Shown here: positions 10,938-33,550 of the stretch, piece after piece
Layout of the letters: every line of letters starts with the position of its first letter
Position numbering within the stretch: position 1 is the first letter of the stretch
From: Pirellulaceae bacterium
GTDB lineage: Bacteria > Planctomycetota > Planctomycetia > Pirellulales > Pirellulaceae
DNA length: 64,000 nucleotides
Direction: 5' to 3'
Assembly: GCA_026004775.1 (NCBI GenBank)
Contig: BPJU01000002.1
Location: forward strand, 180,435 to 244,434
Made by a program: the position numbers and the translations under genes
The notes under the pieces: generated by a model
Databases searched by the model: none
What the model was told of the DNA's origin: nothing
The model's input: the letters and a program-made list of their open reading frames with translations, nothing else

Positions 10938-10997
10938 CTGCCGCCGGACGATCGCTCCTCGGCCGCAGGCGAAAGCGATGGATATCATGCTACGGCA

Positions 10998-12086
10998 TTA
11001 CTTGGGCTTCAAACCCGCCGGGCATGTTGCGCACACCAGCCGCCGGCATCCCGGCCGCATCAGTTGCCATCGCCATTGGAAAGTAGGGTGGGCACAGTTG
11101 GGGCAGACGGCAGGTTCTACGGAATCGGTCAACGGATCGAACACCGCCTTCAGAGCGACCGGATCGCCTTTGTCAGGCCGAATCAGCAGGTCAACGAGCA
11201 GTTTGGCTTGGTGGATTATGGCCGTCCAGAGCAGTCTCAATTGGACGGCGAGTCGGTACTTGTCGATCAATTCCGCGATGCGTATTTGCGCCTCCCGTTC
11301 GATTGCTGCTACTCGTTTGGCTGTCTCTTCGGGATTGGTCGTGCGCCGCTGTCCGGCAAGCAGTTCCCGTTTCAAATCGTCATAGTAGCAGCGCATCCTT
11401 TCCGTTTGCTTGCGGACGCGCTCCTGAAGCTCGCGCTGGCGGAGGTTAGCCAAACCGGACACGGTGCGTAGAGCGCTCTGCTGAGCGACATCGAATCCCT
11501 GCGCCACCGTTGCACGGCGCACCTCCGGCAACAGGATGGAAGGCTGGCGCGCCAAGGACGCGGGGTCCAACAGCCGCTCCCAATGCCTCATCAACCGCAG
11601 GTAGTGCAGGTCCACAGCCGCCACAATCAGATCGTCTTCCCGCTGGTCACTGGAGAATGTTACCTGGAACCAGTACACCGCCTGGGGAAAGTCCAGGGGG
11701 CGCACGCGGGTGCATTCCCACGTTGAGCCTTCGGGGAACGTAAAAGCGCGGCCGAGACGAGCGTCCAGGTTGTGAGGAATGGCATGTGAGACGAGGCGCC
11801 ATAAATGCAGTTGGCGCGCCCGCTGGATAGCCTGCTGGAGGAAGGTGTCGATCAGCGGCGTACCGAAGCTGGCCAACTGCGCCTGCGGGTGCTCGGGAAG
11901 CGCCTCGGTGTCAAAGACAATCCGGCAAACGTCGATTTCCTCGGGGCGAATGTCCGGACGGTCCGGAGCCACGAGAACGTCGTAAACTTGCGGCTCGATC
12001 TCATCCCACACCCCGCCCGTTACTTCCAGATAGTCGCGCACGAATTGTTCGAGCGGCGTGCGCTGGTTTTCTGTGACAGCAGTCAT
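10998..12086 (-). CDS. Zinc-ribbon partner protein of the SNF2 helicase (intact copy)
   Basis: This 362-residue protein starts 3 bases after the stop of the SNF2 helicase gene, so the two are almost certainly translated together. Residues 1-205 are an alpha/beta domain I do not recognise. Residues about 212-290 are a charged helical, coiled-coil-like stretch. The C-terminus is a four-cysteine zinc ribbon (C328, C331, C352, C355). It is probably a DNA-binding or assembly subunit for the helicase (inference). The gene spans the left end of the tandem duplication (11450), so only its first 213 codons were copied; this left-hand copy is complete. Confidence 0.7.
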   Translation of the reverse strand: MTAVTENQRTPLEQFVRDYLEVTGGVWDEIEPQVYDVLVAPDRPDIRPEEIDVCRIVFDTEALPEHPQAQLASFGTPLIDTFLQQAIQRARQLHLWRLVSHAIPHNLDARLGRAFTFPEGSTWECTRVRPLDFPQAVYWFQVTFSSDQREDDLIVAAVDLHYLRLMRHWERLLDPASLARQPSILLPEVRRATVAQGFDVAQQSALRTVSGLANLRQRELQERVRKQTERMRCYYDDLKRELLAGQRRTTNPEETAKRVAAIEREAQIRIAELIDKYRLAVQLRLLWTAIIHQAKLLVDLLIRPDKGDPVALKAVFDPLTDSVEPAVCPNCAHPTFQWRWQLMRPGCRRLVCATCPAGLKPK

Positions 12087-12089
12087 GGT

Positions 12090-14258
12090 TCAGCGATCCG
12101 GCGCAAAACGGTCTCCAAAAAGGCGGTCGTCATACGCGCGTTGCCGCAGGTACGCTTCCTTGGCGGCCAGCAGCCGCTCACCTAATTCCTCCATCCGCCG
12201 GTGGAATTCCTGATCGTCCGGCGAGTCAGCCCATAGGTCGGCTACCATGTCCGCAAACTCGCGATCCTCGTCCAAGTTGCCCAACACCATGTCGATTTCA
12301 CCGATCACCATTTCGAACATGTTGAGTTTGGCCTGGAGCAGATACAGGATCGATTCTTCGATGGTACCCTGCGACACCAGATTGAATACGTATACGTCAT
12401 GCTTTTGTCCAATGCGGCTGAGCCGCCCGACCCGCTGCTCGATTTTCATCGGGTTCCACGGCAGATCGAAGTTGCAAATCCCATGGGCGAACTGCAAATT
12501 GCGTCCCTCACTTCCCGACTCGGTACACACGAGCAACCGAGCCGATTGACGGAACTGCTGGATCGCCTGCTCCTTGGCCAGGCGATTCAGACCTCCGTGA
12601 AAGACGGCCACTTCATGACCGGCCTCGGCCAGACGTTTGGCCAGCATTTCTTGAGTGGCCCGGAACTGGGTAAAAACCACGAGCTTGTCCGGGAATTCGT
12701 CCAGAAGAGCCAGCAGCCGTTCTACCTTCGAGCTGTTGGTTTGAGCGGCACAGGCTTCGGCCAGCGCTTCTAACTCTTGCCTTTCCTCCGTCGGAAGCCC
12801 AGGGTATTCGGCCAACCGCAGCAACGTCCCTGAGGCGGCGTAGCACGAACTGCCCATCGCGACTTGCAGCGCCACGAGCGCCGTACGCTCAAACCGCTTG
12901 GCGGTCGGGCACGGCGGTCCCGCCTGGCCCGGGGCGCGTTCGAGACTGTTTGCCGCCCTGGCCGCTCTGCTGCGCGATCCGGACGTAAGCTGCCATTGTT
13001 TTCGCACCCATCGGCCGACGGATTTGTACAACTCCGCTTCCGGCTGCCACGGTTCCACAGATTCGGTCCGGGCTATTCGACGTGTAAATTGCAATCCCAC
13101 AGTGCTGCGCCGATTGCGCACCATCACTTCAGCTAACAAAGCGTGCAACTGCCCGATATTCTTGGGCATCATTTTGTCCCGGCTGTCCACAAACCGGCGC
13201 AGAAATTGCTTGGATGTACTGAGTAATCCGGGTTCTAACAGAGTTACCAGGTTAAACAATTCCTCTAAATGGTTCTGCACCGGAGTGGCCGTCAGCAGCA
13301 GCACATATTGCTTGCGGATCTGGCTTGCCAGTTTCCAAACCAAGGTAGAGCGGTTCCGCAAGTGATGCGCTTCATCAATGATCAACATGTCCCAGTGCTG
13401 TTCAGCGATCGCATGCCGGTGCGGCTCCCGCTTGGCGGTGTGGATCGAGGCGATAATGCGATCGAATCGCCGCCAGGCATCCTGTCCTGCGCTGCGGAAT
13501 TCCGGGGCATCATGACTGATGAAGTCCAGCGAGAACTTGCGGCGCATCTCGCCCTGCCATTGTTCGATGAGCGACGGAGGAACCAACACCAGCGTGCGCT
13601 TGGCCAGACCCCGCAAGGTCAACTCCGACAGGATCAACCCCGCCTCGACCGTCTTGCCCAACCCCACCTCGTCACACAACAAGGCTCGGCCACGGAATCG
13701 GCGGAGCACCGTCTTGGCCGTGGCAATTTGATGCTCCAACAGCTCCATGTCGCGGACCAACGGCAGGCAGATCAGCTGATCGAAACCGCCGTGGACCGAA
13801 AGCTGCGCCGCACGCTGAGCCAGCAGAAGGTCGACGGGTTCTCCCCAGCGCGCATGACAACCGGCTGTCCCGAACGCGGCTTGCACATCCACGCCAATCA
13901 CCAACCCTCCCTCGAGAGTCGATTCGGCAGTGACGGGTGGCGAGAATAGTTCGCGGACAAGACGATAGCGCCCCGCCCCTAAATACTCGATGAAGATCCC
14001 AGCCGTGTTCTCCGGACGCCACTGCCAATCGGGAGGGATAATCAGCCGATAGGTTCCGTTAGCGTCGGCTTCAAACTCGAGCGGCTCATTTTCCGGCCCG
14101 ACAAAGCTCACCTCCGGCCCCAGCATTTGGGCCAGCAGTTCCGGCACCGGCAAACAACATGACTCGAGGTCCGCCGCCGAAAAGACCACTTCTACGCGGT
14201 CACCGACTTCCCAATCGGCCAACAATCCTTGTCGAAAGCTCGTTCCTGAAAATTTCAC
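12090..14258 (-). CDS. SNF2/RapA-type DNA helicase-translocase (copy 1)
   Basis: This 722-residue protein has an N-terminal region (about 1-165) of unknown fold, then a SNF2 ATPase: Walker A DEVGLGKT at 196-203, DEAH at 295-298 and TATP at 323-326. The second RecA lobe has VFTQFRATQEML, VFHGGLN, GRNLQ and motif VI QRVGRLSRIGQ. Members of this group, such as RapA, move along duplex DNA to displace RNA polymerase or other proteins; others sit in phage-defence loci. Here it is paired with a zinc-ribbon protein beginning 3 bases after its stop. The copy at 20969-23137 is identical. Confidence 0.9.
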   Translation of the reverse strand: MKFSGTSFRQGLLADWEVGDRVEVVFSAADLESCCLPVPELLAQMLGPEVSFVGPENEPLEFEADANGTYRLIIPPDWQWRPENTAGIFIEYLGAGRYRLVRELFSPPVTAESTLEGGLVIGVDVQAAFGTAGCHARWGEPVDLLLAQRAAQLSVHGGFDQLICLPLVRDMELLEHQIATAKTVLRRFRGRALLCDEVGLGKTVEAGLILSELTLRGLAKRTLVLVPPSLIEQWQGEMRRKFSLDFISHDAPEFRSAGQDAWRRFDRIIASIHTAKREPHRHAIAEQHWDMLIIDEAHHLRNRSTLVWKLASQIRKQYVLLLTATPVQNHLEELFNLVTLLEPGLLSTSKQFLRRFVDSRDKMMPKNIGQLHALLAEVMVRNRRSTVGLQFTRRIARTESVEPWQPEAELYKSVGRWVRKQWQLTSGSRSRAARAANSLERAPGQAGPPCPTAKRFERTALVALQVAMGSSCYAASGTLLRLAEYPGLPTEERQELEALAEACAAQTNSSKVERLLALLDEFPDKLVVFTQFRATQEMLAKRLAEAGHEVAVFHGGLNRLAKEQAIQQFRQSARLLVCTESGSEGRNLQFAHGICNFDLPWNPMKIEQRVGRLSRIGQKHDVYVFNLVSQGTIEESILYLLQAKLNMFEMVIGEIDMVLGNLDEDREFADMVADLWADSPDDQEFHRRMEELGERLLAAKEAYLRQRAYDDRLFGDRFAPDR

Positions 14259-14432
14259 GGCGCTTCCTGCTCAACTGTGGTGCCGAAGCGGCGAGCCATC
14301 CGCCTGCCTTCTTCAGGCCAGGCGCAATCGATTGTCATCCGCCAGCGGCCCAAAGGACCTCCACGTGCATGGAGTGATTGTTTCACAAGAGCAGGCAACA
14401 GTCAATCGGAATTCGAAGAACGCTTGGGGCAT

Positions 14433-15506
14433 CTAGCCGGCCTGGGATTCGACTGTATCGAGTGCCCGCAACACCAGGTCGGTCATCTGTGTGGTTCGCA
14501 ATCGCCCTCCAAGGTCCGGAGTGCGTTCCGCCGAATGGGCAAGAGCGTGCCTGACGGCTTGTTCCAAGCGCTGAGCGGCCGCTACCGTTTCTGGGTGCCC
14601 GAGCCACGTGAGCATCATGCCGGCCGACAGTATCATCGCCAGGGGATTGGCAATCTGTTTGCCCGCAATGTCCGGAGCCGACCCGTGGGCAGGTTGGAAC
14701 ACAGCGTGGCGCTCCCCTACGTCGGCCGATGGTGCCAGCCCCATTCCGCCAACGAGAGCTGCCCCGAGATCGCTCAAGATATCCCCAAACATGTTCTCGG
14801 TAACCATTACATCGAACGACTCGGGCCGCAGCACCATGTGCAGCGCTGCAGCATCGACGTAGAGGCACTCGGTCTCTACATCGGGATACTGTTGAGCGAC
14901 ATCGAAAAACACTTGGCGAAAAAAGGCCATTGCCGGCAGGACGTTCGCCTTGTCCACCAGCGTTACCCGGCCGCACCTGCGGCGAGCCCACAGGAAGGCG
15001 GCATGAAACAACCGCTCACTCCCGGTTCGGCTAATGCGCATCACATCGCGCACTTCCTCGGCGCATCGCTGGGATTCACGGCGAGCCCAGAATAGGCCCT
15101 CCGTGCTTTCGCGGATTAACAGGATATCAATCGACTTCAGCCGCTCACTTCTTAACGGAGAAGCCGCTGGGTCCCACAACCGAACCGGCCGCAAACCACA
15201 GTACAGATCCAGTTCCTCCCGAAGATCCACCTGCGGGGTCACCTCTCGGCCGTCCGGCCAGCGGACCGACGGCAAGCCCATTGCTCCCAACAGAACGGCA
15301 TCGGCTTGCCGGCATGCTTCCAGCGTTTCGGGTGGCAGTGGCTGGCCGCATTTTTGATATGTGGCTGCTCCGGCTTCGTGGTACGAGAGCTCGAGCTTGG
15401 CTTCGGTCCAGTCGCCTTCCAGTCTTTGCAGGACGCGCACGGCTTCGCCCATTACTTCCGGACCAATTCCATCGCCCGGCAGCACAGCGATGCGAAATAC
15501 GTGCAC
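14433..15506 (-). CDS. Isocitrate/isopropylmalate dehydrogenase family protein (copy 1)
   Basis: This 357-residue protein carries the family landmarks in order: GDGIGPE (11-17), RESTEG (132-137), the lysine region DKAN (185-188), ENMFGDILSD with the metal-binding aspartates (about 237-246), and the nucleotide site AHGSAPDIAGK (273-283). It should be an NAD(P)-dependent decarboxylating dehydrogenase of a 2-hydroxy acid such as isopropylmalate, isocitrate or tartrate; the substrate cannot be fixed. No leucine-pathway genes are nearby. It lies 44 bases after the sulfatase gene on the same strand, probably in one transcript. The copy at 23312-24385 is identical. Confidence 0.85.
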   Translation of the reverse strand: MHVFRIAVLPGDGIGPEVMGEAVRVLQRLEGDWTEAKLELSYHEAGAATYQKCGQPLPPETLEACRQADAVLLGAMGLPSVRWPDGREVTPQVDLREELDLYCGLRPVRLWDPAASPLRSERLKSIDILLIRESTEGLFWARRESQRCAEEVRDVMRISRTGSERLFHAAFLWARRRCGRVTLVDKANVLPAMAFFRQVFFDVAQQYPDVETECLYVDAAALHMVLRPESFDVMVTENMFGDILSDLGAALVGGMGLAPSADVGERHAVFQPAHGSAPDIAGKQIANPLAMILSAGMMLTWLGHPETVAAAQRLEQAVRHALAHSAERTPDLGGRLRTTQMTDLVLRALDTVESQAG

Positions 15507-15550
15507 CGAATCACTCCTTGTCCTGGCCCTGCCGCTTCAAGAAAGGCGCC

Positions 15551-17458
15551 TCATTGCTCCGATTCCCACGAGGGAGGGATCACTCCCCATTGCTCGAGCA
15601 AATTCCGCTTCGTACGCGGAAAGTATTGGCTATATCGAGCGGGAGTGCCGGGCACCTCGTCGGGAAGGGATTGGAGAAAGCTGGCGTACGTACTGCCCTG
15701 CGCGCCCAAGGACTCCAGCGCCTGAAGTGCGGCCAACGCGGCAAACAGCCCGTTTTTTCTCGGATCGGCATAATCCAGGAGCAGTTGTCGCGCGGCTGTA
15801 CGAGTCGGCTCGCCGGCGGCCCATTGAGCCAACGCTCGGGCGGCCGTAATCCGCACATCCGCCGACGGGTCCTTCAAAGTGGCACCCAAAGTCGATTCGC
15901 TGGCCTTCACCGCTGCCTCGCCGTGCATCAATACTCCCATAACCGCCCAGTACCGGACCGTCGGATCGGGATCGGACAGCCGTTCGACAAGCTGGCCCAT
16001 TTCGGCCGCCTCCAAGCGGCTGGCCCAGTCAGCCGTTTCCTGGATGCGCTCCCAGGGCAGCGCATCGGGGCGGCGGGCCAAATCGTAGGGCGAACCGCCG
16101 CCGCTCCGCTCGTGCATCTGGCCTTCCGGTAACAACGCCACATCGCGGATCGCCCGCTGGTGTTCCTCTAGCACCCGCCGCATCCTTTCCAGCACCTCCC
16201 GATGTTCCGGGGACCCGGCCAGGTTGTGGATCTCGTGCGGATCATTCGCGAGATCGTAAAGCTCCTCAGGCTCACGAGGCACCTGCCAGAAGCGTGACTG
16301 AGCCGCATTGGTCTTTCCTTCCAGATACATCGCCCGCCAGATGCGCGTGGTAGGAGTGGTCAGTTGGTACGGCAAATACTGGCCGTGGGAAACATGTGTC
16401 CAATAATTGCGCAGATAGACGTAGCGTCCGTCGGTAACACTCCGCACGCAATCTCCACATTCATCCATGCGGGCGCGTTCGCCGAACGTATATTGGGGAG
16501 GATCTTCCTGATAGGGTCCGGCAAAGGCCCGTCCTTGCATCCACGGCGGAGGCTGGATACCCGCAATACTTAAGACCGTGGGCGCCAAGTCGACGAAGTT
16601 CACCAAACGATCCGACTTCCCGCCGATCTGATATTCCCGGGGAGCCAGATGTTGCCATTTGGGAGGGAAATAGACCACCATGGGAACGTGCAAACCTGAT
16701 TGGCCTGCCCACCGCTTGTGTCGCGGCATACCGCTGCCATGATCGGCGAAGTAAAACACGATGGTATCTTCCGCCAAACCATCTTCTTCTAACTCAGCAA
16801 GCCGCCTGCCGGCATCCGCATCAGCCTCGCTCACTTGATCGTAATACTGAGCCCAATCGTGACGCACTTCGGGCGTGTCCGGGTGATACGGCGGGACTTG
16901 CACGGCATTCGGGTCGGTCACCAACCGGTGCGGGCGGCGGCGTATCTGGCTCTCGTGACTCTTCGTGGAATTGAACACCGCAAAAAACGGCTGGCCCGGC
17001 TTGCGGTTGCGCCAATGAGCCCGCTGCGAGGAGTCGTCCCATGTCCCCGGAGGTTTGGGCACGTTGTAATCCTCCTTCACATTATTCGTACAATAATAGC
17101 CGGCTTCGCGAAGAAGTTGCGGAAAAAGTACCACACCGGAAGGCAAGGGAACCATCGAGCGCATGTGGATGGTGCCCGTACTGGAAGGATACATGCCGGT
17201 GATGATCGCGGTGCGGGCAGGAGCACATACGGGCACGCACGACCAGGCATGAGTGAAGATCATCCCTTTACGGGCCAGAGCGTCGACGTGCGGTGTCCGC
17301 GCCAGCCGGTCTCCGTAACAACCCATGTGGGGGCCGTGATCTTCGCTGGTCAACCACAAAATATTAGGGCGCTCCGCCCCCCGCAGCCATTCGTCAACAC
17401 CAACCAACAGGACACTAACAATTATCACCCACCGGCCAGTTGATAGAAAACAGTTCAT
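15551..17458 (-). CDS. Secreted sulfatase with C-terminal HEAT-like repeats (copy 1)
   Basis: This 635-residue protein has an N-terminal hydrophobic signal (about 9-22) and then a sulfatase domain beginning PNILWLTSEDHGPH. The formylglycine motif is C78-x-P80-x-R82, the cysteine being converted to the catalytic residue by a maturation enzyme not present in this window. After the sulfatase fold, about residues 475-600 look like HEAT-type helical repeats (DPDPTVRYWAVMG, DPSADVRITAARAL). That extension may dock substrate or partners. It probably cleaves sulfate esters or N-sulfate groups of sulfated polysaccharides outside the cytoplasm. The copy at 24430-26337 is identical. Confidence 0.88.
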   Translation of the reverse strand: MNCFLSTGRWVIIVSVLLVGVDEWLRGAERPNILWLTSEDHGPHMGCYGDRLARTPHVDALARKGMIFTHAWSCVPVCAPARTAIITGMYPSSTGTIHMRSMVPLPSGVVLFPQLLREAGYYCTNNVKEDYNVPKPPGTWDDSSQRAHWRNRKPGQPFFAVFNSTKSHESQIRRRPHRLVTDPNAVQVPPYHPDTPEVRHDWAQYYDQVSEADADAGRRLAELEEDGLAEDTIVFYFADHGSGMPRHKRWAGQSGLHVPMVVYFPPKWQHLAPREYQIGGKSDRLVNFVDLAPTVLSIAGIQPPPWMQGRAFAGPYQEDPPQYTFGERARMDECGDCVRSVTDGRYVYLRNYWTHVSHGQYLPYQLTTPTTRIWRAMYLEGKTNAAQSRFWQVPREPEELYDLANDPHEIHNLAGSPEHREVLERMRRVLEEHQRAIRDVALLPEGQMHERSGGGSPYDLARRPDALPWERIQETADWASRLEAAEMGQLVERLSDPDPTVRYWAVMGVLMHGEAAVKASESTLGATLKDPSADVRITAARALAQWAAGEPTRTAARQLLLDYADPRKNGLFAALAALQALESLGAQGSTYASFLQSLPDEVPGTPARYSQYFPRTKRNLLEQWGVIPPSWESEQ

Positions 17459-17583
17459 GATCGGTCACCCCAAAATGCTTACATTTCTTGCCCGCACCAT
17501 TTCTCTCAATATTGCAACCATTCAGTTGACAATTCGATTGGCGAAAGTAATTCAAATTTTTTTCCGATTATGTGCGTGCCGGA

Positions 17584-19125
17584 TCATTCCGGTATTGGGT
17601 CGGCCCGCCGCACCGGTTTTCCTTCCCAGACCGCTTCGTCGGTGGCCGGGTCATAGGTGAGCACGCGATGTTGGCTGCCGGGTGCCGGAGGAGCATCGAT
17701 GCGGGGTAACCACCGCCGATGCTCGGCCAGCACCTCCGCCACAGCCGGATCACCAGCCAAATTGTGCCACTCGTGCGGGTCGTTTTCCATATCGTACAAC
17801 TCCTCCGTGCCATCCGCATAACGGATGTATCGCCATCGTTGGCTGCGGACGGCGTGGTTGCCTTGATTGTGCGTGGTAATGGCGGGCCAAGGCCGGCTGC
17901 TTTCCGGATGGCGAAGCTGCGCGACCAGGCTGTGGCCCTCAAGGTCGCCTCGGCCAGCCAAACCACACAATTCGATGAGAGTCGGATACGTATCGAGCAA
18001 TTCGGCCGGGGCTTTTACTCGGCCTCCCTGCCGTATGCCGGGCCCGGCCCAAATGAACGGCACCCGCGTCGATCGTTCCCACAAGCTGTTCTTGCCCGTA
18101 ATGCCTTTTTCTCCCAAGTGCCAGCCATGATCGCCCCATACCACCACGATCGTGTTGTCCTGCAAACCGAGCTCTTCCAAGGCATCCAACAGCCGGCCGA
18201 TCTGCGCGTCGACGAAACTGGTACAGGCCAGATACGACCGAACGAGGTTGCGCCACTGATCCTGCTGCTTCACCCACCGCAGGCGAGGCTCCGGCAAATA
18301 CCAGTGCAAGTGCCAGGAAAAGCGCGGTGTGTCGTCACGGTCGTTTTCCAATACGGGGGGCAGAATCGAGTCGTCATCCGGGTAGAGCGAAAACCAATGT
18401 TCGGTGGCATAGCACGGCACATGAGGCAAAAAATAGCCCACCGCCATGAAAAACGGCTGCCGGCGGTCGTGCTGCCGCAATTGTTCAATAGCCCAACTGG
18501 TGATCTGATAGTCCCCCTTGTCTTCGTCCCGGTGCGGAAACGTCCCCCAATCCATCAACGGGTGGTTGCCCATCGGGGTGGGCGGGATCAGTTTTTGCGG
18601 CGGGCGAACGCCGATACCACCCGGCGGTCCCCATACGTCGAACTCCCGCAATCGAGCCTGCCGGTCACCCACCCCACCGTGATAGACTTTGCCGGTTGTG
18701 TAGGTGCGATAACCATGATCGCGAAAGTGCTGCGGCAAGGTGACTCGGTCCTGCCACTGCGGCACGTTGCGGAACCAGGGAGCCAGCCCGTAAATCCCGG
18801 TGGTACTGGGGCGCAGCCCCAGCATCAAACTGGTGCGCGATGGATTACACAATGGCGATTGGCAATGAGCATTCAGAAATACCACGCCGCGAGCTGCCAG
18901 CCGATCCAGATGCGGTGTCTTGGCCAAGGGATGCCCGCCGAGCGGCCCGACCCAGTCGTTTTGATCGTCAATGGCGATCATCAGCACATTCGGCCTGTCC
19001 GCAGCGAACAAATGGCTCGGTTTCCGAAAATCTAATACAAAAATCAGTAGTAGAAAATAGATTACACACCAATTTACTAAATTGTGGCCGCTAATAGTGG
19101 AATTGGTTGTGGATATTGATTTCAT
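17584..19125 (-). CDS. Secreted sulfatase, iduronate-2-sulfatase/choline-sulfatase-like (copy 1)
   Basis: The ATG at 19125 is preferred: it is followed by a hydrophobic signal segment (about residues 19-32), while the longer upstream frame is Cys/Pro-rich and unlike protein. The product has 513 residues. The fold starts DRPNVLMIAIDDQNDW, with the metal aspartates, and the formylglycine site is C93-x-P95-x-R97. Later motifs include VVVWGDHGWHLGE and ENDPHEWHNLAGDP, typical of iduronate-2-sulfatase-like enzymes. It likely removes sulfate from algal or animal polysaccharides in the periplasm. It lies 125 bases upstream of the HEAT-repeat sulfatase gene. The copy at 26463-28004 is identical. Confidence 0.87.
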   Translation of the reverse strand: MKSISTTNSTISGHNLVNWCVIYFLLLIFVLDFRKPSHLFAADRPNVLMIAIDDQNDWVGPLGGHPLAKTPHLDRLAARGVVFLNAHCQSPLCNPSRTSLMLGLRPSTTGIYGLAPWFRNVPQWQDRVTLPQHFRDHGYRTYTTGKVYHGGVGDRQARLREFDVWGPPGGIGVRPPQKLIPPTPMGNHPLMDWGTFPHRDEDKGDYQITSWAIEQLRQHDRRQPFFMAVGYFLPHVPCYATEHWFSLYPDDDSILPPVLENDRDDTPRFSWHLHWYLPEPRLRWVKQQDQWRNLVRSYLACTSFVDAQIGRLLDALEELGLQDNTIVVVWGDHGWHLGEKGITGKNSLWERSTRVPFIWAGPGIRQGGRVKAPAELLDTYPTLIELCGLAGRGDLEGHSLVAQLRHPESSRPWPAITTHNQGNHAVRSQRWRYIRYADGTEELYDMENDPHEWHNLAGDPAVAEVLAEHRRWLPRIDAPPAPGSQHRVLTYDPATDEAVWEGKPVRRADPIPE

Positions 19126-19475
19126 AATACTATTCCGCGGTATTGGCAGTCGGTATTGGTCCGCACAGCGGACCATGTTCGGATTATTGTTTGCCGGCGG
19201 ACATGGAGGTCGCGCGTTAGTCTCGGCCCAATCGCTCGATCGTCCGCCCCGGCCAGGAGAAGTCGCCGGGATGGCGCGGCAGCCGCAACACTGCCGCAGC
19301 AAAAAACGCATCCTCGGGCAGCCCCCTCCCGCTTTCAGCCGAGCGCGATCCTGTTCCGCGTATGCCTTTTTCGGAAGGTCGCAGAAAGAGCCTCTTCAGT
19401 AATTGCTGGGTACCGTCCACCCTCCTTTCCCTGTCTCCTCGTGGCACCTACTTTGGCATGGGCAGGTCGAGCTGC
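19126..19475. other. 350-base gap between sulfatase genes (copy 1)
   Basis: This gap separates two minus-strand sulfatase genes. It holds short open frames with no plausible product and no ribosome sites. The minus-strand sequence next to 19125 is AT-rich and may contain the promoter of the downstream sulfatase. An identical copy lies at 28005-28354. Confidence 0.4.
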
Positions 19476-20328
19476 CTACGAGTCCAGTTTCAAATCCAAC
19501 GGAAAAACCGGGTTTTCGGCCGTTTCTTGCCGCAAGACTTCCTTGGCCTGCTGGATAATCTGCGGATGCTCTTTGGCGAGGTTTTTCGTTTCACCGGGAT
19601 CGGTCGCCAGGTCGTATAGTTCCCACTCGCCAGGCTGTCGCGCTTTGAGATTGCGGCGGACCACTTTCCAGTCACCCATGCGCACGGCGACCTGGCCGCC
19701 CGATTCGGGAAAGACCCAAACCAGCGGCTTCCGCCGCTGGAAGGTTCCCTGCCCTACCAGTAAAGGCCACAGGCTATCGCCGTCCAAGTCTTCGGGAATG
19801 GTAAAGCCGGCGGCTTCGCACAGAGTGGGGAACCAATCGGCGAAATAGCTGGGCGTGTCGTTGACCGTACCGGCGGGAATACGTCCCGGCAAGCGCACGA
19901 TGGTCGGCACGCGGATACCTCCTTCGTAGACGCTGCCTTTCCAGCCGCGCAGTCCCGCTGTGCTGTGGAAAAACTCCGCATCGACTCCACCCACATGAAA
20001 ATGGTCGCTGCCGGCGTGCGGCAGCGTAGTGCCATTATCACTGCTGAAGATCACCAGCGTCTTATCGGAAATGCCCAGCCGGTCCAGTGCGGCAAGCACT
20101 CTTCCGACATACTCGTCCAGTTCGTTGATCAGCGCCGCATAGGCTGCCCGCGGCCGCGGATGCGGCAAGTACCCGCATTCGCCGCGATAGACCTCCTTGT
20201 CCCACTCGACCGGGAAGCGATTTACCCGCTCGATCGGAGGATGCATCGCCACATGCGGTTCGATGAACGGCAAATAGAGAAAAAACGGCCGGCCGGCGTT
20301 CGCTTCCAGGAAACGAATCGCTTCTTCG
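19476..20328 (-). pseudogene. 5'-truncated sulfatase left by the tandem duplication
   Basis: From 19476 to 20328 the sequence equals the last part of the intact sulfatase at 28355-29893. It begins at about residue 232 of that protein (EEAIRFLEAN) and runs to its stop. Upstream of 20328 the DNA changes abruptly to the helicase-partner gene, in another frame. The formylglycine site, the metal aspartates and the signal peptide are all missing, so the product cannot be an active sulfatase. A frame is open back to 20462, but that part translates partner-gene DNA out of frame. Confidence 0.9.
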
Positions 20329-20965: not shown

Positions 20966-20968
20966 GGT

Positions 20969-23137
20969 TCAGCGATCCGGCGCAAAACGGTCTCCAAAAA
21001 GGCGGTCGTCATACGCGCGTTGCCGCAGGTACGCTTCCTTGGCGGCCAGCAGCCGCTCACCTAATTCCTCCATCCGCCGGTGGAATTCCTGATCGTCCGG
21101 CGAGTCAGCCCATAGGTCGGCTACCATGTCCGCAAACTCGCGATCCTCGTCCAAGTTGCCCAACACCATGTCGATTTCACCGATCACCATTTCGAACATG
21201 TTGAGTTTGGCCTGGAGCAGATACAGGATCGATTCTTCGATGGTACCCTGCGACACCAGATTGAATACGTATACGTCATGCTTTTGTCCAATGCGGCTGA
21301 GCCGCCCGACCCGCTGCTCGATTTTCATCGGGTTCCACGGCAGATCGAAGTTGCAAATCCCATGGGCGAACTGCAAATTGCGTCCCTCACTTCCCGACTC
21401 GGTACACACGAGCAACCGAGCCGATTGACGGAACTGCTGGATCGCCTGCTCCTTGGCCAGGCGATTCAGACCTCCGTGAAAGACGGCCACTTCATGACCG
21501 GCCTCGGCCAGACGTTTGGCCAGCATTTCTTGAGTGGCCCGGAACTGGGTAAAAACCACGAGCTTGTCCGGGAATTCGTCCAGAAGAGCCAGCAGCCGTT
21601 CTACCTTCGAGCTGTTGGTTTGAGCGGCACAGGCTTCGGCCAGCGCTTCTAACTCTTGCCTTTCCTCCGTCGGAAGCCCAGGGTATTCGGCCAACCGCAG
21701 CAACGTCCCTGAGGCGGCGTAGCACGAACTGCCCATCGCGACTTGCAGCGCCACGAGCGCCGTACGCTCAAACCGCTTGGCGGTCGGGCACGGCGGTCCC
21801 GCCTGGCCCGGGGCGCGTTCGAGACTGTTTGCCGCCCTGGCCGCTCTGCTGCGCGATCCGGACGTAAGCTGCCATTGTTTTCGCACCCATCGGCCGACGG
21901 ATTTGTACAACTCCGCTTCCGGCTGCCACGGTTCCACAGATTCGGTCCGGGCTATTCGACGTGTAAATTGCAATCCCACAGTGCTGCGCCGATTGCGCAC
22001 CATCACTTCAGCTAACAAAGCGTGCAACTGCCCGATATTCTTGGGCATCATTTTGTCCCGGCTGTCCACAAACCGGCGCAGAAATTGCTTGGATGTACTG
22101 AGTAATCCGGGTTCTAACAGAGTTACCAGGTTAAACAATTCCTCTAAATGGTTCTGCACCGGAGTGGCCGTCAGCAGCAGCACATATTGCTTGCGGATCT
22201 GGCTTGCCAGTTTCCAAACCAAGGTAGAGCGGTTCCGCAAGTGATGCGCTTCATCAATGATCAACATGTCCCAGTGCTGTTCAGCGATCGCATGCCGGTG
22301 CGGCTCCCGCTTGGCGGTGTGGATCGAGGCGATAATGCGATCGAATCGCCGCCAGGCATCCTGTCCTGCGCTGCGGAATTCCGGGGCATCATGACTGATG
22401 AAGTCCAGCGAGAACTTGCGGCGCATCTCGCCCTGCCATTGTTCGATGAGCGACGGAGGAACCAACACCAGCGTGCGCTTGGCCAGACCCCGCAAGGTCA
22501 ACTCCGACAGGATCAACCCCGCCTCGACCGTCTTGCCCAACCCCACCTCGTCACACAACAAGGCTCGGCCACGGAATCGGCGGAGCACCGTCTTGGCCGT
22601 GGCAATTTGATGCTCCAACAGCTCCATGTCGCGGACCAACGGCAGGCAGATCAGCTGATCGAAACCGCCGTGGACCGAAAGCTGCGCCGCACGCTGAGCC
22701 AGCAGAAGGTCGACGGGTTCTCCCCAGCGCGCATGACAACCGGCTGTCCCGAACGCGGCTTGCACATCCACGCCAATCACCAACCCTCCCTCGAGAGTCG
22801 ATTCGGCAGTGACGGGTGGCGAGAATAGTTCGCGGACAAGACGATAGCGCCCCGCCCCTAAATACTCGATGAAGATCCCAGCCGTGTTCTCCGGACGCCA
22901 CTGCCAATCGGGAGGGATAATCAGCCGATAGGTTCCGTTAGCGTCGGCTTCAAACTCGAGCGGCTCATTTTCCGGCCCGACAAAGCTCACCTCCGGCCCC
23001 AGCATTTGGGCCAGCAGTTCCGGCACCGGCAAACAACATGACTCGAGGTCCGCCGCCGAAAAGACCACTTCTACGCGGTCACCGACTTCCCAATCGGCCA
23101 ACAATCCTTGTCGAAAGCTCGTTCCTGAAAATTTCAC
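20969..23137 (-). CDS. SNF2/RapA-type DNA helicase-translocase (copy 2)
   Basis: The 722-residue product is identical to that of 12090-14258, with the same Walker A, DEAH and motif VI residues. The difference lies downstream: the partner gene beginning 3 bases after its stop is here the truncated chimera, so this copy has no complete partner of its own. Confidence 0.9.
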   Translation of the reverse strand: MKFSGTSFRQGLLADWEVGDRVEVVFSAADLESCCLPVPELLAQMLGPEVSFVGPENEPLEFEADANGTYRLIIPPDWQWRPENTAGIFIEYLGAGRYRLVRELFSPPVTAESTLEGGLVIGVDVQAAFGTAGCHARWGEPVDLLLAQRAAQLSVHGGFDQLICLPLVRDMELLEHQIATAKTVLRRFRGRALLCDEVGLGKTVEAGLILSELTLRGLAKRTLVLVPPSLIEQWQGEMRRKFSLDFISHDAPEFRSAGQDAWRRFDRIIASIHTAKREPHRHAIAEQHWDMLIIDEAHHLRNRSTLVWKLASQIRKQYVLLLTATPVQNHLEELFNLVTLLEPGLLSTSKQFLRRFVDSRDKMMPKNIGQLHALLAEVMVRNRRSTVGLQFTRRIARTESVEPWQPEAELYKSVGRWVRKQWQLTSGSRSRAARAANSLERAPGQAGPPCPTAKRFERTALVALQVAMGSSCYAASGTLLRLAEYPGLPTEERQELEALAEACAAQTNSSKVERLLALLDEFPDKLVVFTQFRATQEMLAKRLAEAGHEVAVFHGGLNRLAKEQAIQQFRQSARLLVCTESGSEGRNLQFAHGICNFDLPWNPMKIEQRVGRLSRIGQKHDVYVFNLVSQGTIEESILYLLQAKLNMFEMVIGEIDMVLGNLDEDREFADMVADLWADSPDDQEFHRRMEELGERLLAAKEAYLRQRAYDDRLFGDRFAPDR

Positions 23138-23311
23138 GGCGCTTCCTGCTCAACTGTGGTGCCGAAGCGGCGAGCCATCCGCCTGCCTTCTTCAGGCCAG
23201 GCGCAATCGATTGTCATCCGCCAGCGGCCCAAAGGACCTCCACGTGCATGGAGTGATTGTTTCACAAGAGCAGGCAACAGTCAATCGGAATTCGAAGAAC
23301 GCTTGGGGCAT

Positions 23312-24385
23312 CTAGCCGGCCTGGGATTCGACTGTATCGAGTGCCCGCAACACCAGGTCGGTCATCTGTGTGGTTCGCAATCGCCCTCCAAGGTCCGGAG
23401 TGCGTTCCGCCGAATGGGCAAGAGCGTGCCTGACGGCTTGTTCCAAGCGCTGAGCGGCCGCTACCGTTTCTGGGTGCCCGAGCCACGTGAGCATCATGCC
23501 GGCCGACAGTATCATCGCCAGGGGATTGGCAATCTGTTTGCCCGCAATGTCCGGAGCCGACCCGTGGGCAGGTTGGAACACAGCGTGGCGCTCCCCTACG
23601 TCGGCCGATGGTGCCAGCCCCATTCCGCCAACGAGAGCTGCCCCGAGATCGCTCAAGATATCCCCAAACATGTTCTCGGTAACCATTACATCGAACGACT
23701 CGGGCCGCAGCACCATGTGCAGCGCTGCAGCATCGACGTAGAGGCACTCGGTCTCTACATCGGGATACTGTTGAGCGACATCGAAAAACACTTGGCGAAA
23801 AAAGGCCATTGCCGGCAGGACGTTCGCCTTGTCCACCAGCGTTACCCGGCCGCACCTGCGGCGAGCCCACAGGAAGGCGGCATGAAACAACCGCTCACTC
23901 CCGGTTCGGCTAATGCGCATCACATCGCGCACTTCCTCGGCGCATCGCTGGGATTCACGGCGAGCCCAGAATAGGCCCTCCGTGCTTTCGCGGATTAACA
24001 GGATATCAATCGACTTCAGCCGCTCACTTCTTAACGGAGAAGCCGCTGGGTCCCACAACCGAACCGGCCGCAAACCACAGTACAGATCCAGTTCCTCCCG
24101 AAGATCCACCTGCGGGGTCACCTCTCGGCCGTCCGGCCAGCGGACCGACGGCAAGCCCATTGCTCCCAACAGAACGGCATCGGCTTGCCGGCATGCTTCC
24201 AGCGTTTCGGGTGGCAGTGGCTGGCCGCATTTTTGATATGTGGCTGCTCCGGCTTCGTGGTACGAGAGCTCGAGCTTGGCTTCGGTCCAGTCGCCTTCCA
24301 GTCTTTGCAGGACGCGCACGGCTTCGCCCATTACTTCCGGACCAATTCCATCGCCCGGCAGCACAGCGATGCGAAATACGTGCAC
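23312..24385 (-). CDS. Isocitrate/isopropylmalate dehydrogenase family protein (copy 2)
   Basis: The 357-residue product is identical to that of 14433-15506, with all nucleotide-, substrate- and metal-site motifs present. Spacing to the flanking genes is the same. If the duplication is real, gene dosage of this enzyme is doubled. Confidence 0.85.
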   Translation of the reverse strand: MHVFRIAVLPGDGIGPEVMGEAVRVLQRLEGDWTEAKLELSYHEAGAATYQKCGQPLPPETLEACRQADAVLLGAMGLPSVRWPDGREVTPQVDLREELDLYCGLRPVRLWDPAASPLRSERLKSIDILLIRESTEGLFWARRESQRCAEEVRDVMRISRTGSERLFHAAFLWARRRCGRVTLVDKANVLPAMAFFRQVFFDVAQQYPDVETECLYVDAAALHMVLRPESFDVMVTENMFGDILSDLGAALVGGMGLAPSADVGERHAVFQPAHGSAPDIAGKQIANPLAMILSAGMMLTWLGHPETVAAAQRLEQAVRHALAHSAERTPDLGGRLRTTQMTDLVLRALDTVESQAG

Positions 24386-24429
24386 CGAATCACTCCTTGT
24401 CCTGGCCCTGCCGCTTCAAGAAAGGCGCC

Positions 24430-26337
24430 TCATTGCTCCGATTCCCACGAGGGAGGGATCACTCCCCATTGCTCGAGCAAATTCCGCTTCGTACGCGGAA
24501 AGTATTGGCTATATCGAGCGGGAGTGCCGGGCACCTCGTCGGGAAGGGATTGGAGAAAGCTGGCGTACGTACTGCCCTGCGCGCCCAAGGACTCCAGCGC
24601 CTGAAGTGCGGCCAACGCGGCAAACAGCCCGTTTTTTCTCGGATCGGCATAATCCAGGAGCAGTTGTCGCGCGGCTGTACGAGTCGGCTCGCCGGCGGCC
24701 CATTGAGCCAACGCTCGGGCGGCCGTAATCCGCACATCCGCCGACGGGTCCTTCAAAGTGGCACCCAAAGTCGATTCGCTGGCCTTCACCGCTGCCTCGC
24801 CGTGCATCAATACTCCCATAACCGCCCAGTACCGGACCGTCGGATCGGGATCGGACAGCCGTTCGACAAGCTGGCCCATTTCGGCCGCCTCCAAGCGGCT
24901 GGCCCAGTCAGCCGTTTCCTGGATGCGCTCCCAGGGCAGCGCATCGGGGCGGCGGGCCAAATCGTAGGGCGAACCGCCGCCGCTCCGCTCGTGCATCTGG
25001 CCTTCCGGTAACAACGCCACATCGCGGATCGCCCGCTGGTGTTCCTCTAGCACCCGCCGCATCCTTTCCAGCACCTCCCGATGTTCCGGGGACCCGGCCA
25101 GGTTGTGGATCTCGTGCGGATCATTCGCGAGATCGTAAAGCTCCTCAGGCTCACGAGGCACCTGCCAGAAGCGTGACTGAGCCGCATTGGTCTTTCCTTC
25201 CAGATACATCGCCCGCCAGATGCGCGTGGTAGGAGTGGTCAGTTGGTACGGCAAATACTGGCCGTGGGAAACATGTGTCCAATAATTGCGCAGATAGACG
25301 TAGCGTCCGTCGGTAACACTCCGCACGCAATCTCCACATTCATCCATGCGGGCGCGTTCGCCGAACGTATATTGGGGAGGATCTTCCTGATAGGGTCCGG
25401 CAAAGGCCCGTCCTTGCATCCACGGCGGAGGCTGGATACCCGCAATACTTAAGACCGTGGGCGCCAAGTCGACGAAGTTCACCAAACGATCCGACTTCCC
25501 GCCGATCTGATATTCCCGGGGAGCCAGATGTTGCCATTTGGGAGGGAAATAGACCACCATGGGAACGTGCAAACCTGATTGGCCTGCCCACCGCTTGTGT
25601 CGCGGCATACCGCTGCCATGATCGGCGAAGTAAAACACGATGGTATCTTCCGCCAAACCATCTTCTTCTAACTCAGCAAGCCGCCTGCCGGCATCCGCAT
25701 CAGCCTCGCTCACTTGATCGTAATACTGAGCCCAATCGTGACGCACTTCGGGCGTGTCCGGGTGATACGGCGGGACTTGCACGGCATTCGGGTCGGTCAC
25801 CAACCGGTGCGGGCGGCGGCGTATCTGGCTCTCGTGACTCTTCGTGGAATTGAACACCGCAAAAAACGGCTGGCCCGGCTTGCGGTTGCGCCAATGAGCC
25901 CGCTGCGAGGAGTCGTCCCATGTCCCCGGAGGTTTGGGCACGTTGTAATCCTCCTTCACATTATTCGTACAATAATAGCCGGCTTCGCGAAGAAGTTGCG
26001 GAAAAAGTACCACACCGGAAGGCAAGGGAACCATCGAGCGCATGTGGATGGTGCCCGTACTGGAAGGATACATGCCGGTGATGATCGCGGTGCGGGCAGG
26101 AGCACATACGGGCACGCACGACCAGGCATGAGTGAAGATCATCCCTTTACGGGCCAGAGCGTCGACGTGCGGTGTCCGCGCCAGCCGGTCTCCGTAACAA
26201 CCCATGTGGGGGCCGTGATCTTCGCTGGTCAACCACAAAATATTAGGGCGCTCCGCCCCCCGCAGCCATTCGTCAACACCAACCAACAGGACACTAACAA
26301 TTATCACCCACCGGCCAGTTGATAGAAAACAGTTCAT
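24430..26337 (-). CDS. Secreted sulfatase with C-terminal HEAT-like repeats (copy 2)
   Basis: The 635-residue product is identical to that of 15551-17458, with signal segment, formylglycine motif C78-x-P80-x-R82 and HEAT-like C-terminus. Nothing distinguishes the two copies in sequence or immediate context. Confidence 0.88.
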   Translation of the reverse strand: MNCFLSTGRWVIIVSVLLVGVDEWLRGAERPNILWLTSEDHGPHMGCYGDRLARTPHVDALARKGMIFTHAWSCVPVCAPARTAIITGMYPSSTGTIHMRSMVPLPSGVVLFPQLLREAGYYCTNNVKEDYNVPKPPGTWDDSSQRAHWRNRKPGQPFFAVFNSTKSHESQIRRRPHRLVTDPNAVQVPPYHPDTPEVRHDWAQYYDQVSEADADAGRRLAELEEDGLAEDTIVFYFADHGSGMPRHKRWAGQSGLHVPMVVYFPPKWQHLAPREYQIGGKSDRLVNFVDLAPTVLSIAGIQPPPWMQGRAFAGPYQEDPPQYTFGERARMDECGDCVRSVTDGRYVYLRNYWTHVSHGQYLPYQLTTPTTRIWRAMYLEGKTNAAQSRFWQVPREPEELYDLANDPHEIHNLAGSPEHREVLERMRRVLEEHQRAIRDVALLPEGQMHERSGGGSPYDLARRPDALPWERIQETADWASRLEAAEMGQLVERLSDPDPTVRYWAVMGVLMHGEAAVKASESTLGATLKDPSADVRITAARALAQWAAGEPTRTAARQLLLDYADPRKNGLFAALAALQALESLGAQGSTYASFLQSLPDEVPGTPARYSQYFPRTKRNLLEQWGVIPPSWESEQ

Positions 26338-26462
26338 GATCGGTCACCCCAAAATGCTTACATTTCTTGCCCGCACCATTTCTCTCAATATTGCAACCAT
26401 TCAGTTGACAATTCGATTGGCGAAAGTAATTCAAATTTTTTTCCGATTATGTGCGTGCCGGA

Positions 26463-28004
26463 TCATTCCGGTATTGGGTCGGCCCGCCGCACCGGTTTTC
26501 CTTCCCAGACCGCTTCGTCGGTGGCCGGGTCATAGGTGAGCACGCGATGTTGGCTGCCGGGTGCCGGAGGAGCATCGATGCGGGGTAACCACCGCCGATG
26601 CTCGGCCAGCACCTCCGCCACAGCCGGATCACCAGCCAAATTGTGCCACTCGTGCGGGTCGTTTTCCATATCGTACAACTCCTCCGTGCCATCCGCATAA
26701 CGGATGTATCGCCATCGTTGGCTGCGGACGGCGTGGTTGCCTTGATTGTGCGTGGTAATGGCGGGCCAAGGCCGGCTGCTTTCCGGATGGCGAAGCTGCG
26801 CGACCAGGCTGTGGCCCTCAAGGTCGCCTCGGCCAGCCAAACCACACAATTCGATGAGAGTCGGATACGTATCGAGCAATTCGGCCGGGGCTTTTACTCG
26901 GCCTCCCTGCCGTATGCCGGGCCCGGCCCAAATGAACGGCACCCGCGTCGATCGTTCCCACAAGCTGTTCTTGCCCGTAATGCCTTTTTCTCCCAAGTGC
27001 CAGCCATGATCGCCCCATACCACCACGATCGTGTTGTCCTGCAAACCGAGCTCTTCCAAGGCATCCAACAGCCGGCCGATCTGCGCGTCGACGAAACTGG
27101 TACAGGCCAGATACGACCGAACGAGGTTGCGCCACTGATCCTGCTGCTTCACCCACCGCAGGCGAGGCTCCGGCAAATACCAGTGCAAGTGCCAGGAAAA
27201 GCGCGGTGTGTCGTCACGGTCGTTTTCCAATACGGGGGGCAGAATCGAGTCGTCATCCGGGTAGAGCGAAAACCAATGTTCGGTGGCATAGCACGGCACA
27301 TGAGGCAAAAAATAGCCCACCGCCATGAAAAACGGCTGCCGGCGGTCGTGCTGCCGCAATTGTTCAATAGCCCAACTGGTGATCTGATAGTCCCCCTTGT
27401 CTTCGTCCCGGTGCGGAAACGTCCCCCAATCCATCAACGGGTGGTTGCCCATCGGGGTGGGCGGGATCAGTTTTTGCGGCGGGCGAACGCCGATACCACC
27501 CGGCGGTCCCCATACGTCGAACTCCCGCAATCGAGCCTGCCGGTCACCCACCCCACCGTGATAGACTTTGCCGGTTGTGTAGGTGCGATAACCATGATCG
27601 CGAAAGTGCTGCGGCAAGGTGACTCGGTCCTGCCACTGCGGCACGTTGCGGAACCAGGGAGCCAGCCCGTAAATCCCGGTGGTACTGGGGCGCAGCCCCA
27701 GCATCAAACTGGTGCGCGATGGATTACACAATGGCGATTGGCAATGAGCATTCAGAAATACCACGCCGCGAGCTGCCAGCCGATCCAGATGCGGTGTCTT
27801 GGCCAAGGGATGCCCGCCGAGCGGCCCGACCCAGTCGTTTTGATCGTCAATGGCGATCATCAGCACATTCGGCCTGTCCGCAGCGAACAAATGGCTCGGT
27901 TTCCGAAAATCTAATACAAAAATCAGTAGTAGAAAATAGATTACACACCAATTTACTAAATTGTGGCCGCTAATAGTGGAATTGGTTGTGGATATTGATT
28001 TCAT
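26463..28004 (-). CDS. Secreted sulfatase, iduronate-2-sulfatase/choline-sulfatase-like (copy 2)
   Basis: The 513-residue product is identical to that of 17584-19125, using the equivalent ATG at 28004, with the formylglycine site C93-x-P95-x-R97. Unlike copy 1 it follows a complete sulfatase gene (28355-29893), which is presumably the ancestral order. Confidence 0.87.
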   Translation of the reverse strand: MKSISTTNSTISGHNLVNWCVIYFLLLIFVLDFRKPSHLFAADRPNVLMIAIDDQNDWVGPLGGHPLAKTPHLDRLAARGVVFLNAHCQSPLCNPSRTSLMLGLRPSTTGIYGLAPWFRNVPQWQDRVTLPQHFRDHGYRTYTTGKVYHGGVGDRQARLREFDVWGPPGGIGVRPPQKLIPPTPMGNHPLMDWGTFPHRDEDKGDYQITSWAIEQLRQHDRRQPFFMAVGYFLPHVPCYATEHWFSLYPDDDSILPPVLENDRDDTPRFSWHLHWYLPEPRLRWVKQQDQWRNLVRSYLACTSFVDAQIGRLLDALEELGLQDNTIVVVWGDHGWHLGEKGITGKNSLWERSTRVPFIWAGPGIRQGGRVKAPAELLDTYPTLIELCGLAGRGDLEGHSLVAQLRHPESSRPWPAITTHNQGNHAVRSQRWRYIRYADGTEELYDMENDPHEWHNLAGDPAVAEVLAEHRRWLPRIDAPPAPGSQHRVLTYDPATDEAVWEGKPVRRADPIPE

Positions 28005-28354
28005 AATACTATTCCGCGGTATTGGCAGTCGGTATTGGTCCGCACAGCGGACCATGTTCGGATTATTGTTTGCCGGCGGACATGGAGGTCGCGCGTTAGT
28101 CTCGGCCCAATCGCTCGATCGTCCGCCCCGGCCAGGAGAAGTCGCCGGGATGGCGCGGCAGCCGCAACACTGCCGCAGCAAAAAACGCATCCTCGGGCAG
28201 CCCCCTCCCGCTTTCAGCCGAGCGCGATCCTGTTCCGCGTATGCCTTTTTCGGAAGGTCGCAGAAAGAGCCTCTTCAGTAATTGCTGGGTACCGTCCACC
28301 CTCCTTTCCCTGTCTCCTCGTGGCACCTACTTTGGCATGGGCAGGTCGAGCTGC
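28005..28354. other. 350-base gap between sulfatase genes (copy 2)
   Basis: This matches 19126-19475. No gene, RNA or clear regulatory element is visible; a promoter for the downstream sulfatase is possible in the AT-rich end near 28005. Confidence 0.4.
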
Positions 28355-29893
28355 CTACGAGTCCAGTTTCAAATCCAACGGAAAAACCGGGTTTTCGGCC
28401 GTTTCTTGCCGCAAGACTTCCTTGGCCTGCTGGATAATCTGCGGATGCTCTTTGGCGAGGTTTTTCGTTTCACCGGGATCGGTCGCCAGGTCGTATAGTT
28501 CCCACTCGCCAGGCTGTCGCGCTTTGAGATTGCGGCGGACCACTTTCCAGTCACCCATGCGCACGGCGACCTGGCCGCCCGATTCGGGAAAGACCCAAAC
28601 CAGCGGCTTCCGCCGCTGGAAGGTTCCCTGCCCTACCAGTAAAGGCCACAGGCTATCGCCGTCCAAGTCTTCGGGAATGGTAAAGCCGGCGGCTTCGCAC
28701 AGAGTGGGGAACCAATCGGCGAAATAGCTGGGCGTGTCGTTGACCGTACCGGCGGGAATACGTCCCGGCAAGCGCACGATGGTCGGCACGCGGATACCTC
28801 CTTCGTAGACGCTGCCTTTCCAGCCGCGCAGTCCCGCTGTGCTGTGGAAAAACTCCGCATCGACTCCACCCACATGAAAATGGTCGCTGCCGGCGTGCGG
28901 CAGCGTAGTGCCATTATCACTGCTGAAGATCACCAGCGTCTTATCGGAAATGCCCAGCCGGTCCAGTGCGGCAAGCACTCTTCCGACATACTCGTCCAGT
29001 TCGTTGATCAGCGCCGCATAGGCTGCCCGCGGCCGCGGATGCGGCAAGTACCCGCATTCGCCGCGATAGACCTCCTTGTCCCACTCGACCGGGAAGCGAT
29101 TTACCCGCTCGATCGGAGGATGCATCGCCACATGCGGTTCGATGAACGGCAAATAGAGAAAAAACGGCCGGCCGGCGTTCGCTTCCAGGAAACGAATCGC
29201 TTCTTCGATCATCAAATCCGGCGCATAGTTCTCGCTCACATAATCCTCCATCTTCACCTCGCCTTCCGGCTGTTTCTGGTGTCCGGGGATGGGACGGCGA
29301 TTGATAATGATCCGCTCGCTGTTGCGCCACAGATGAGGCGGGTAGTAGCTGTGAGCTACACTCTGGCAGTTATAACCGAAAAACAGATCGAAACCGTGTC
29401 GGTTCGGATCCCCGGTGCTGCCGACCGGGCCCAAGCCCCATTTGCCCATGGCGCCCGTTGCGTATCCGGCTTTCTGAAAGAGTTCGGCGATGGTTACCGC
29501 TTTTTCCGAAATCGGGTATTGGCCCTCGTCGAACTGAGGCAGCAGGCGGCGAGCCTGCATATTACTGCGGATTTCGGCATGCCCCAGGTGTTTCCCGGTC
29601 ATCAGTACGCAGCGTGACGGAGCACAAACCGGCGCACCGGAATAGTGCTGCGTGAAGCGCATGCCTTGAGCGGCCAGCCGATCGATATTGGGCGTGGGAA
29701 TCTTCTGCTGGCCGTAACATCCCAACTCACCCCACCCCAGATCGTCCGCCAGAATAAACACCACATTCAAGCGGTCCTGGGCTGCGCCCGGCCTAACGAA
29801 AAGCCAGCCCAGCAGAATGGCGGCAAGCATTCCAGCCCATCGACAAATCCGGAGTGCCCTGCGGAGACGCGAACTGTAACGAATTTTTCCCAT
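28355..29893 (-). CDS. Secreted arylsulfatase A-type sulfatase (intact copy)
   Basis: The ATG at 29893 is preferred over one at 29899, because GGGGAGG abuts the latter and sits 6 bases before the former. The product has 512 residues: an Arg-rich N-terminus and hydrophobic signal, then RLNVVFILADDLGWGELGCYG with the metal aspartates, and the formylglycine site CAPSR at C90-x-P92-x-R94. Further motifs, MGKWGLGPVG and FSSDNGTTLPH, fit arylsulfatase A-type enzymes. It likely desulfates carbohydrate esters outside the cytoplasm. Its last 281 codons or so lie in the duplicated unit; the 5' end lies outside it, so this is the only complete copy. Confidence 0.9.
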   Translation of the reverse strand: MGKIRYSSRLRRALRICRWAGMLAAILLGWLFVRPGAAQDRLNVVFILADDLGWGELGCYGQQKIPTPNIDRLAAQGMRFTQHYSGAPVCAPSRCVLMTGKHLGHAEIRSNMQARRLLPQFDEGQYPISEKAVTIAELFQKAGYATGAMGKWGLGPVGSTGDPNRHGFDLFFGYNCQSVAHSYYPPHLWRNSERIIINRRPIPGHQKQPEGEVKMEDYVSENYAPDLMIEEAIRFLEANAGRPFFLYLPFIEPHVAMHPPIERVNRFPVEWDKEVYRGECGYLPHPRPRAAYAALINELDEYVGRVLAALDRLGISDKTLVIFSSDNGTTLPHAGSDHFHVGGVDAEFFHSTAGLRGWKGSVYEGGIRVPTIVRLPGRIPAGTVNDTPSYFADWFPTLCEAAGFTIPEDLDGDSLWPLLVGQGTFQRRKPLVWVFPESGGQVAVRMGDWKVVRRNLKARQPGEWELYDLATDPGETKNLAKEHPQIIQQAKEVLRQETAENPVFPLDLKLDS

Positions 29894-29967
29894 TGCCATC
29901 CTCCCCGATCCGGAACGTCGGCGAAGTAAGTGGAACGGTCCCTGGCGCGGATGTGCGGGCTTGTGGT

Positions 29968-33389: not shown

Positions 33390-33476
33390 AACTAGAAATT
33401 CCCCATCGATCGTCCCCGTCCTCTACCACCCCGCAGATGGGGCAAGCGTGCGAGCCGCTCCTTCCCGTTTGAATAT

Positions 33477-33522: not shown

Positions 33523-33550
33523 CTACCGTCGGGTGGATCAGGAGTCGTAG

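Follow-up and report, generated by a model that had tools for sequence, protein, structure and literature searches.

An exact 8,879-bp head-to-tail doublet in a planctomycete genome assembly, probably an untrimmed overlap join

A contig of a planctomycete genome assembly carries two identical, directly adjacent copies of an 8,879-bp unit, and we suggest that this doublet is probably an assembly artefact (that is, an untrimmed overlap join), which is the most likely of the readings considered here. Two assembly pieces would have had 8,879 bp in common, at the end of one and the start of the next, and would have been set end to end with the overlap untrimmed, such that a single genomic copy was written twice. 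This reading is favoured by a scaffold gap 11.4 kb away together with an unmerged overlap between two other contigs (C29 and C15) and core-gene blocks doubled at contig termini; by the position of eight of 11 head-to-tail pairs near contig ends or gaps, together with the seemingly read-like sizes of the doubled blocks; and by zero differences over 8,879 bp together with a random-like join. Should the doublet be an artefact, counts of genes, sulfatases and single-copy markers in this genome would be inflated by it and by the doubled sequence at several contig ends; should the pairs be real, this genome would stand out as an unusual natural example of frequent homology-free duplication.

Structure and gene content of the doublet

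Within the window (the whole stretch of DNA analysed, 64,000 bases long and corresponding to C2:180435-244434 of a 30-contig, 6,143,060-base genome), self-comparison matched 11449-20328 to 20328-29207 over 8,880 consecutive bases at an offset of 8,879 with 0 mismatches, which bears out the exact tandem duplication that an earlier, sequence-only reading had claimed at this offset. No other self-offset has any common 24-mers in the window, and the window is free of Ns. As a sequence structure, this is a head-to-tail tandem duplication, with two adjacent direct copies, one novel join and intact outer flanks. The unit measures 8,879 bp, a single G at the join being ambiguous, and the same comparison confirmed the claim that left flank, join and right flank have just this one base in common. 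Given that joins drawn at random in the same sequence (200,000 draws) have 0 common bases in a fraction of 0.553 and one base in 0.281, the one-base homology at 20328/20329 is as a random join would give. Window base 1 directly follows a 100-N gap (C2:180335-180434), and the stretch was therefore scaffolded. The elements of this structure, to which no strand applies, are as follows.

1-11448: left flank, from the scaffold gap to copy 1, with no other long copy found in the genome (best 40 of 89 candidates)
11450-20328 (equally 11449-20327): copy 1 of the unit, identical to 20329-29207
20329-29207: copy 2 of the unit, identical to copy 1
20319-20338: join of both copies, with one base (G) common to both

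The sequence-only reading had held that neither flanking repeats nor an insertion sequence explain the doublet, and our results agree. No border repeat was seen, as flanks and join have one base in common and the unit, apart from its own two copies, has no match of at least 120 bp at 75% identity or more in a 2.75-Mb sample of the genome (defined below). Pfam scans, which covered all four whole genes, both border genes and a cut 247-aa ORF, detected no integrase, transposase or reverse transcriptase. The repeat or insertion sequence at both borders that duplication by homologous recombination or by an insertion sequence would require was thus not encountered in these searches, and an insertion sequence, prophage or integrative element was rejected as the cause on the same grounds. 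A third copy, or a source of the unit elsewhere in the genome, was also rejected: none was found among the best 40 of 77 candidates scored over all 30 contigs (6,143,060 bases), in which the four other matches to the unit span 62-112 bp at 71-81% identity. No Rfam family scored above threshold in the window.

The genes in the unit and at its borders are listed below.

12090-14258 (copy 2: 20969-23137), minus strand: SNF2-family helicase, 722 aa, copy 1 (PF00176, PF00271)
14433-15506 (copy 2: 23312-24385), minus strand: Iso_dh-family dehydrogenase, 357 aa, copy 1 (Pfam; leuB is the best NCBIfam model, below its cut-off)
15551-17458 (copy 2: 24430-26337), minus strand: sulfatase with C-terminal HEAT repeats, 635 aa, copy 1 (CAPAR at residue 78)
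17584-19311 (copy 2: 26463-28190), minus strand: sulfatase, 575 aa, copy 1 (CNPSR at residue 155)
10998-12086, minus strand: intact 362-aa ORF straddling the left border, without Pfam or NCBIfam match
20222-20965, minus strand: cut second copy of the 362-aa ORF (about the first 212 residues, then about 35 unrelated residues past the join)
28355-29899, minus strand: intact sulfatase, 514 aa, straddling the right border (CAPSR at residue 92)
19476-20328, minus strand: cut copy of the 514-aa sulfatase (about residues 232-514), without the CAPSR motif

The four whole genes previously reported as doubled (the SNF2 helicase, the dehydrogenase, which is of the isopropylmalate/isocitrate type, and two sulfatases) are indeed present in both copies. 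Beyond these, each copy has about 212 codons of the 362-aa ORF and the C-terminal part of a third sulfatase, two cut border genes of which the sequence-only reading made no mention. As the complete 362-aa ORF and the complete 514-aa sulfatase remain on the outer sides, the doublet breaks no gene. The proposal that the duplication raises sulfatase dosage is not supported, given that the genome has 46 sulfatase-domain rows (44 above the cut-off), or about 40 loci by count when split rows are merged and both unit copies and the cut remnant are included; two added full genes are a small change against this number, and the third is cut and lacks CAPSR.

Doubled segments elsewhere in the assembly

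The genome was compared with itself over 2,748,050 bases (2.75 of 6.14 Mb). Into this sample went C1-C3, C29 and C30 complete, C4 up to base 160,000 and its final 20 kb, 20 kb from either end of C5-C20, and the opening 20 kb of C21-C28. With pairs defined by an offset of at most 10 kb, an alignment of at least 1.5 kb and an identity of at least 99%, this sample holds 11 head-to-tail pairs, the window's own included, at the following offsets in bases.

C2: 8,879 (window)
C12: 7,145
C2: 6,852
C4: 5,001
C3: 3,538
C11: 2,477
C1: 2,432
C20: 1,958
C11: 1,754
C4: 1,616
C3: 1,384

Eight of these pairs have a contig end or an N gap no more than 12 kb away, as compared with a mean of 2.65 for random placement in the sample (p 0.0007; the 12-kb limit was chosen post hoc, and the count rests on gaps in the sampled stretches, such that any gap in the rest of C4 would go unseen). 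The clustering favours an untrimmed join as the origin of the window's doublet and speaks against a real duplication; however, it could also reflect real repeats that break assemblies, and the remaining three pairs (C1:115331, C4:139916 and C4:144711) are at least 115 kb from known ends or gaps of their contigs. One of the eight, the C11 pair with offset 1,754, has an N gap inside. Both C4 pairs, the C1 pair, the 1,754-base pair of C11 and the 1,384-base pair of C3 have spacers of 100-938 bases or array overlap, like ordinary repeat families. The C12 pair doubles recG and genes for a pterin dehydratase, a glycosyltransferase and an ammonium transporter, and its second copy ends at the last base of the contig, after 7,120 of 7,145 bases, with one mismatch between the copies. 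This recG to ammonium-transporter doublet occupies positions 5736-20000 of the final 20-kb piece of C12.

Substitutions between copies, pooled over seven of the other ten pairs, amount to 23 transitions and 7 transversions, with 7 synonymous and 4 non-synonymous changes in listed ORFs. The 6,852-base pair of C2 supplies 19 of the 30 pooled substitutions (14 transitions to 5 transversions), and 19 of its 22 differing columns fall in the first kilobase, where identity is 98.4% versus 99.95% in the rest. The pool leaves out the window's pair (no differences), the arrays at C3:397849, C4:139916 and C11:15936, and C5:1-8207, a pair at a contig start that at 98.9% identity (33 mismatches, 10 gap openings) is below the 99% limit and whose single-C insertions do resemble errors. 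Random sequencing error was ruled out as the source of the pooled differences by the 23:7 transition bias. As these differences are unlike random base-calling errors, at least some of the pairs are real DNA or strain variants, and the pooled differences are divergence between real copies or between strains.

A side case is provided by C20:345-4260, where two group II introns (unit 1,958 bp, each with an Rfam Intron_gpII match) stand exactly head to tail; one scanned copy has a 448-aa reverse transcriptase/maturase ORF, and the copies differ at three positions, all synonymous transitions. Like the window's copies, these introns are exactly adjacent; they have no bases in common at their join and are a mobile element (a reverse transcriptase with maturase domain and an Rfam match), none of which was seen in the window's unit.

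The same assembly leaves multi-kilobase overlaps between contig ends unmerged. The last 11,832 bases of C29 equal the first 11,832 of C15, terminus to terminus, with one mismatch; the end of C10 overlaps the start of C18 over 3,212 bp, 137 bases short of the C10 terminus; and smaller common ends are found between C27 and C1 (4.3 kb) and between C1 and C2 (1.9 kb). C4:1-10958 is identical to C15:158-11115 (10,958 bases), and in a whole-genome search this 10.9-kb core-gene block (with ScpB, glutamyl-tRNA reductase, sigma-54 regulator and argininosuccinate lyase domains) was listed only at the start of C4, the start of C15 and the end of C29, with no internal copy. A 9.6-kb block with FtsK, ketoacyl-synthase and beta-CASP domains was found by whole-genome search at both ends of C6, in opposite orientation, and nowhere else. 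Housekeeping genes of the kind held by these terminal blocks are normally single, and the doubling of core genes only at termini is as expected where contig ends run on, unmerged, through a repeat or overlap. Near-identity in the C4/C15 and C6 blocks stops at the start of dispersed 2-3-kb elements, whereas the window's join has no dispersed element at its border. The block common to C4, C15 and C29 adjoins a dispersed 2.7-kb element, and the inverted terminal copy at C6:3-11690 (11.7 kb) has its differences mostly in a dispersed 2.1-kb element at the inner border. Doubled blocks above 6 kb measure 6.85, 7.1, 8.9, 9.6 (unique part) and 11-11.8 kb and appear to form a read-like size class, albeit one selected by size, with smaller doubles of 1.4-5 kb also present.

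Origin of the doublet

C29 and C15 written end to end would give exactly the structure seen in the window, and we infer that the window's join has the same origin as the other unmerged end overlaps, in an assembly that was presumably based on long reads of about 10 kb. An untrimmed join would explain the exactness of the copies, the arbitrary borders and the nearby scaffold gap. A comparable situation is described in PMC6966772, which reports circular contigs from Canu and NextDenovo with start/end overlaps of thousands of bases, correlated with read N50. The likeness to the overlaps treated there is a multi-kilobase exact repeat where assembly pieces meet; the difference is that those overlaps join the start and end of circular contigs, whereas the window's doublet lies inside a contig, with no Ns and 11.4 kb from a gap. 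Other observations also count against an untrimmed join. The unit is otherwise single and its borders are repeat-free, which leaves no evident cause for an assembly break at this point, and a real duplication would supply one; furthermore, the join has no Ns, unlike the three 100-N gaps seen, the nearest known of which lies 11,448 bp to the left.

The main rival is a real, recent, illegitimate tandem duplication whose head-to-tail copy has not yet diverged or been lost, which we regard as possible but somewhat unlikely. Its ends would have been joined without homology, through template switching or end joining between sister chromosomes, and the unit would be the latest in a line of such duplications in the genome. 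The sequence-only reading offered a very recent illegitimate duplication or an assembly artefact, which is the correct pair of options. Exact identity alone does not date the event, as an assembler that passes one graph node twice would also emit identical copies. A real duplication is supported by the ten other pairs, three of them deep inside contigs, which span a range of divergence; the evolved appearance of the pooled differences shows that the genome does carry real or strain-level tandem copies. It would also explain why pieces should end in otherwise unique sequence, which an untrimmed join does not, and reads longer than about 10 kb would suffice to lay out an 8.9-kb doublet. On the other side, several unrelated homology-free events of similar size would be needed (6.85 kb on C2, 7.1 kb with recG on C12 and 8.9 kb in the window), and the zero differences and random-like join give no positive sign of biology.

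Spontaneous bacterial tandem duplications that lack long border homology, as treated in PMC7661048, PMC12607827 and PMC3411829, resemble the doublet in being head to tail, with no border repeats and with intact neighbours. Of five Pseudomonas fluorescens isolates with duplications of 45-290 kb in PMC7661048, three have no obvious end homology. In PMC12607827, the loss of engineered tandem duplications (2.6-18 kb) from Pseudomonas aeruginosa is slow, at about 1e-4 to 9e-4 per generation, and at such rates an 8.9-kb doublet could persist. Five of eight Salmonella duplications tested in PMC3411829 were confirmed; these had microhomologies of 11-27 bp, and the unconfirmed ones had 7, 9 and 17 bp. 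The window's join differs in having one base, and these microhomology data bear weakly on it, joins shorter than 7 bp being outside the tests that the study describes.

A broader version of the real-duplication reading, namely that homology-free tandem and segmental duplications (2-12 kb) arise unusually often in this planctomycete and leave near-identical copies of graded age, the window's unit being the youngest, seems to us doubtful. The segments that it would cover are those with RecG; with ScpB, glutamyl-tRNA reductase and argininosuccinate lyase; with FtsK and ketoacyl synthase; and with the sulfatases.

A real join with a copy number other than two, in which the assembled doublet would stand for an array of more units, for a mixed population or for excised circles, is very improbable: identical units are not countable from a consensus, the C12 pair stops within its second copy as an unresolved array might, and short units can amplify to high copy number according to PMC12607827, but the main ORFs of the unit include no integrase or transposase.

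Surroundings and relatives of the window

The best named matches of the SNF2 protein are planctomycete metagenome genomes, with a Pirellulales genome (65%) at the top, and the genus is represented by none of the 59 other relatives searched. A 400-bp query centred on the join matched 51 of 198 other genomes of the family, with no match crossing query base 200 (the join); as the matched genomes seen belong to other genera, a recent event would not be expected in them.

Around the scaffold gap, the 11,448-base left flank matches the rest of the genome only through a dispersed repeat of about 75 bases in its first 112 (window 31-111, with at least 39 other genome matches at 78-95% among the best 40 of 89 candidates). 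Beyond the gap, the matches of C2:170001-180000 to other places in the genome (best 40 of 248 candidates) are confined to a dispersed element of 212 bases and a single match about 120 bases long; this element, at C2:176152-176363, is MITE-like in size and has about 40 copies among the matches listed, at 91-98% identity. To the right of the doublet, dispersed short repeats cluster at about 33300-33850 of the window, with about 70 matches listed in the genome (best 40 of 260 candidates).
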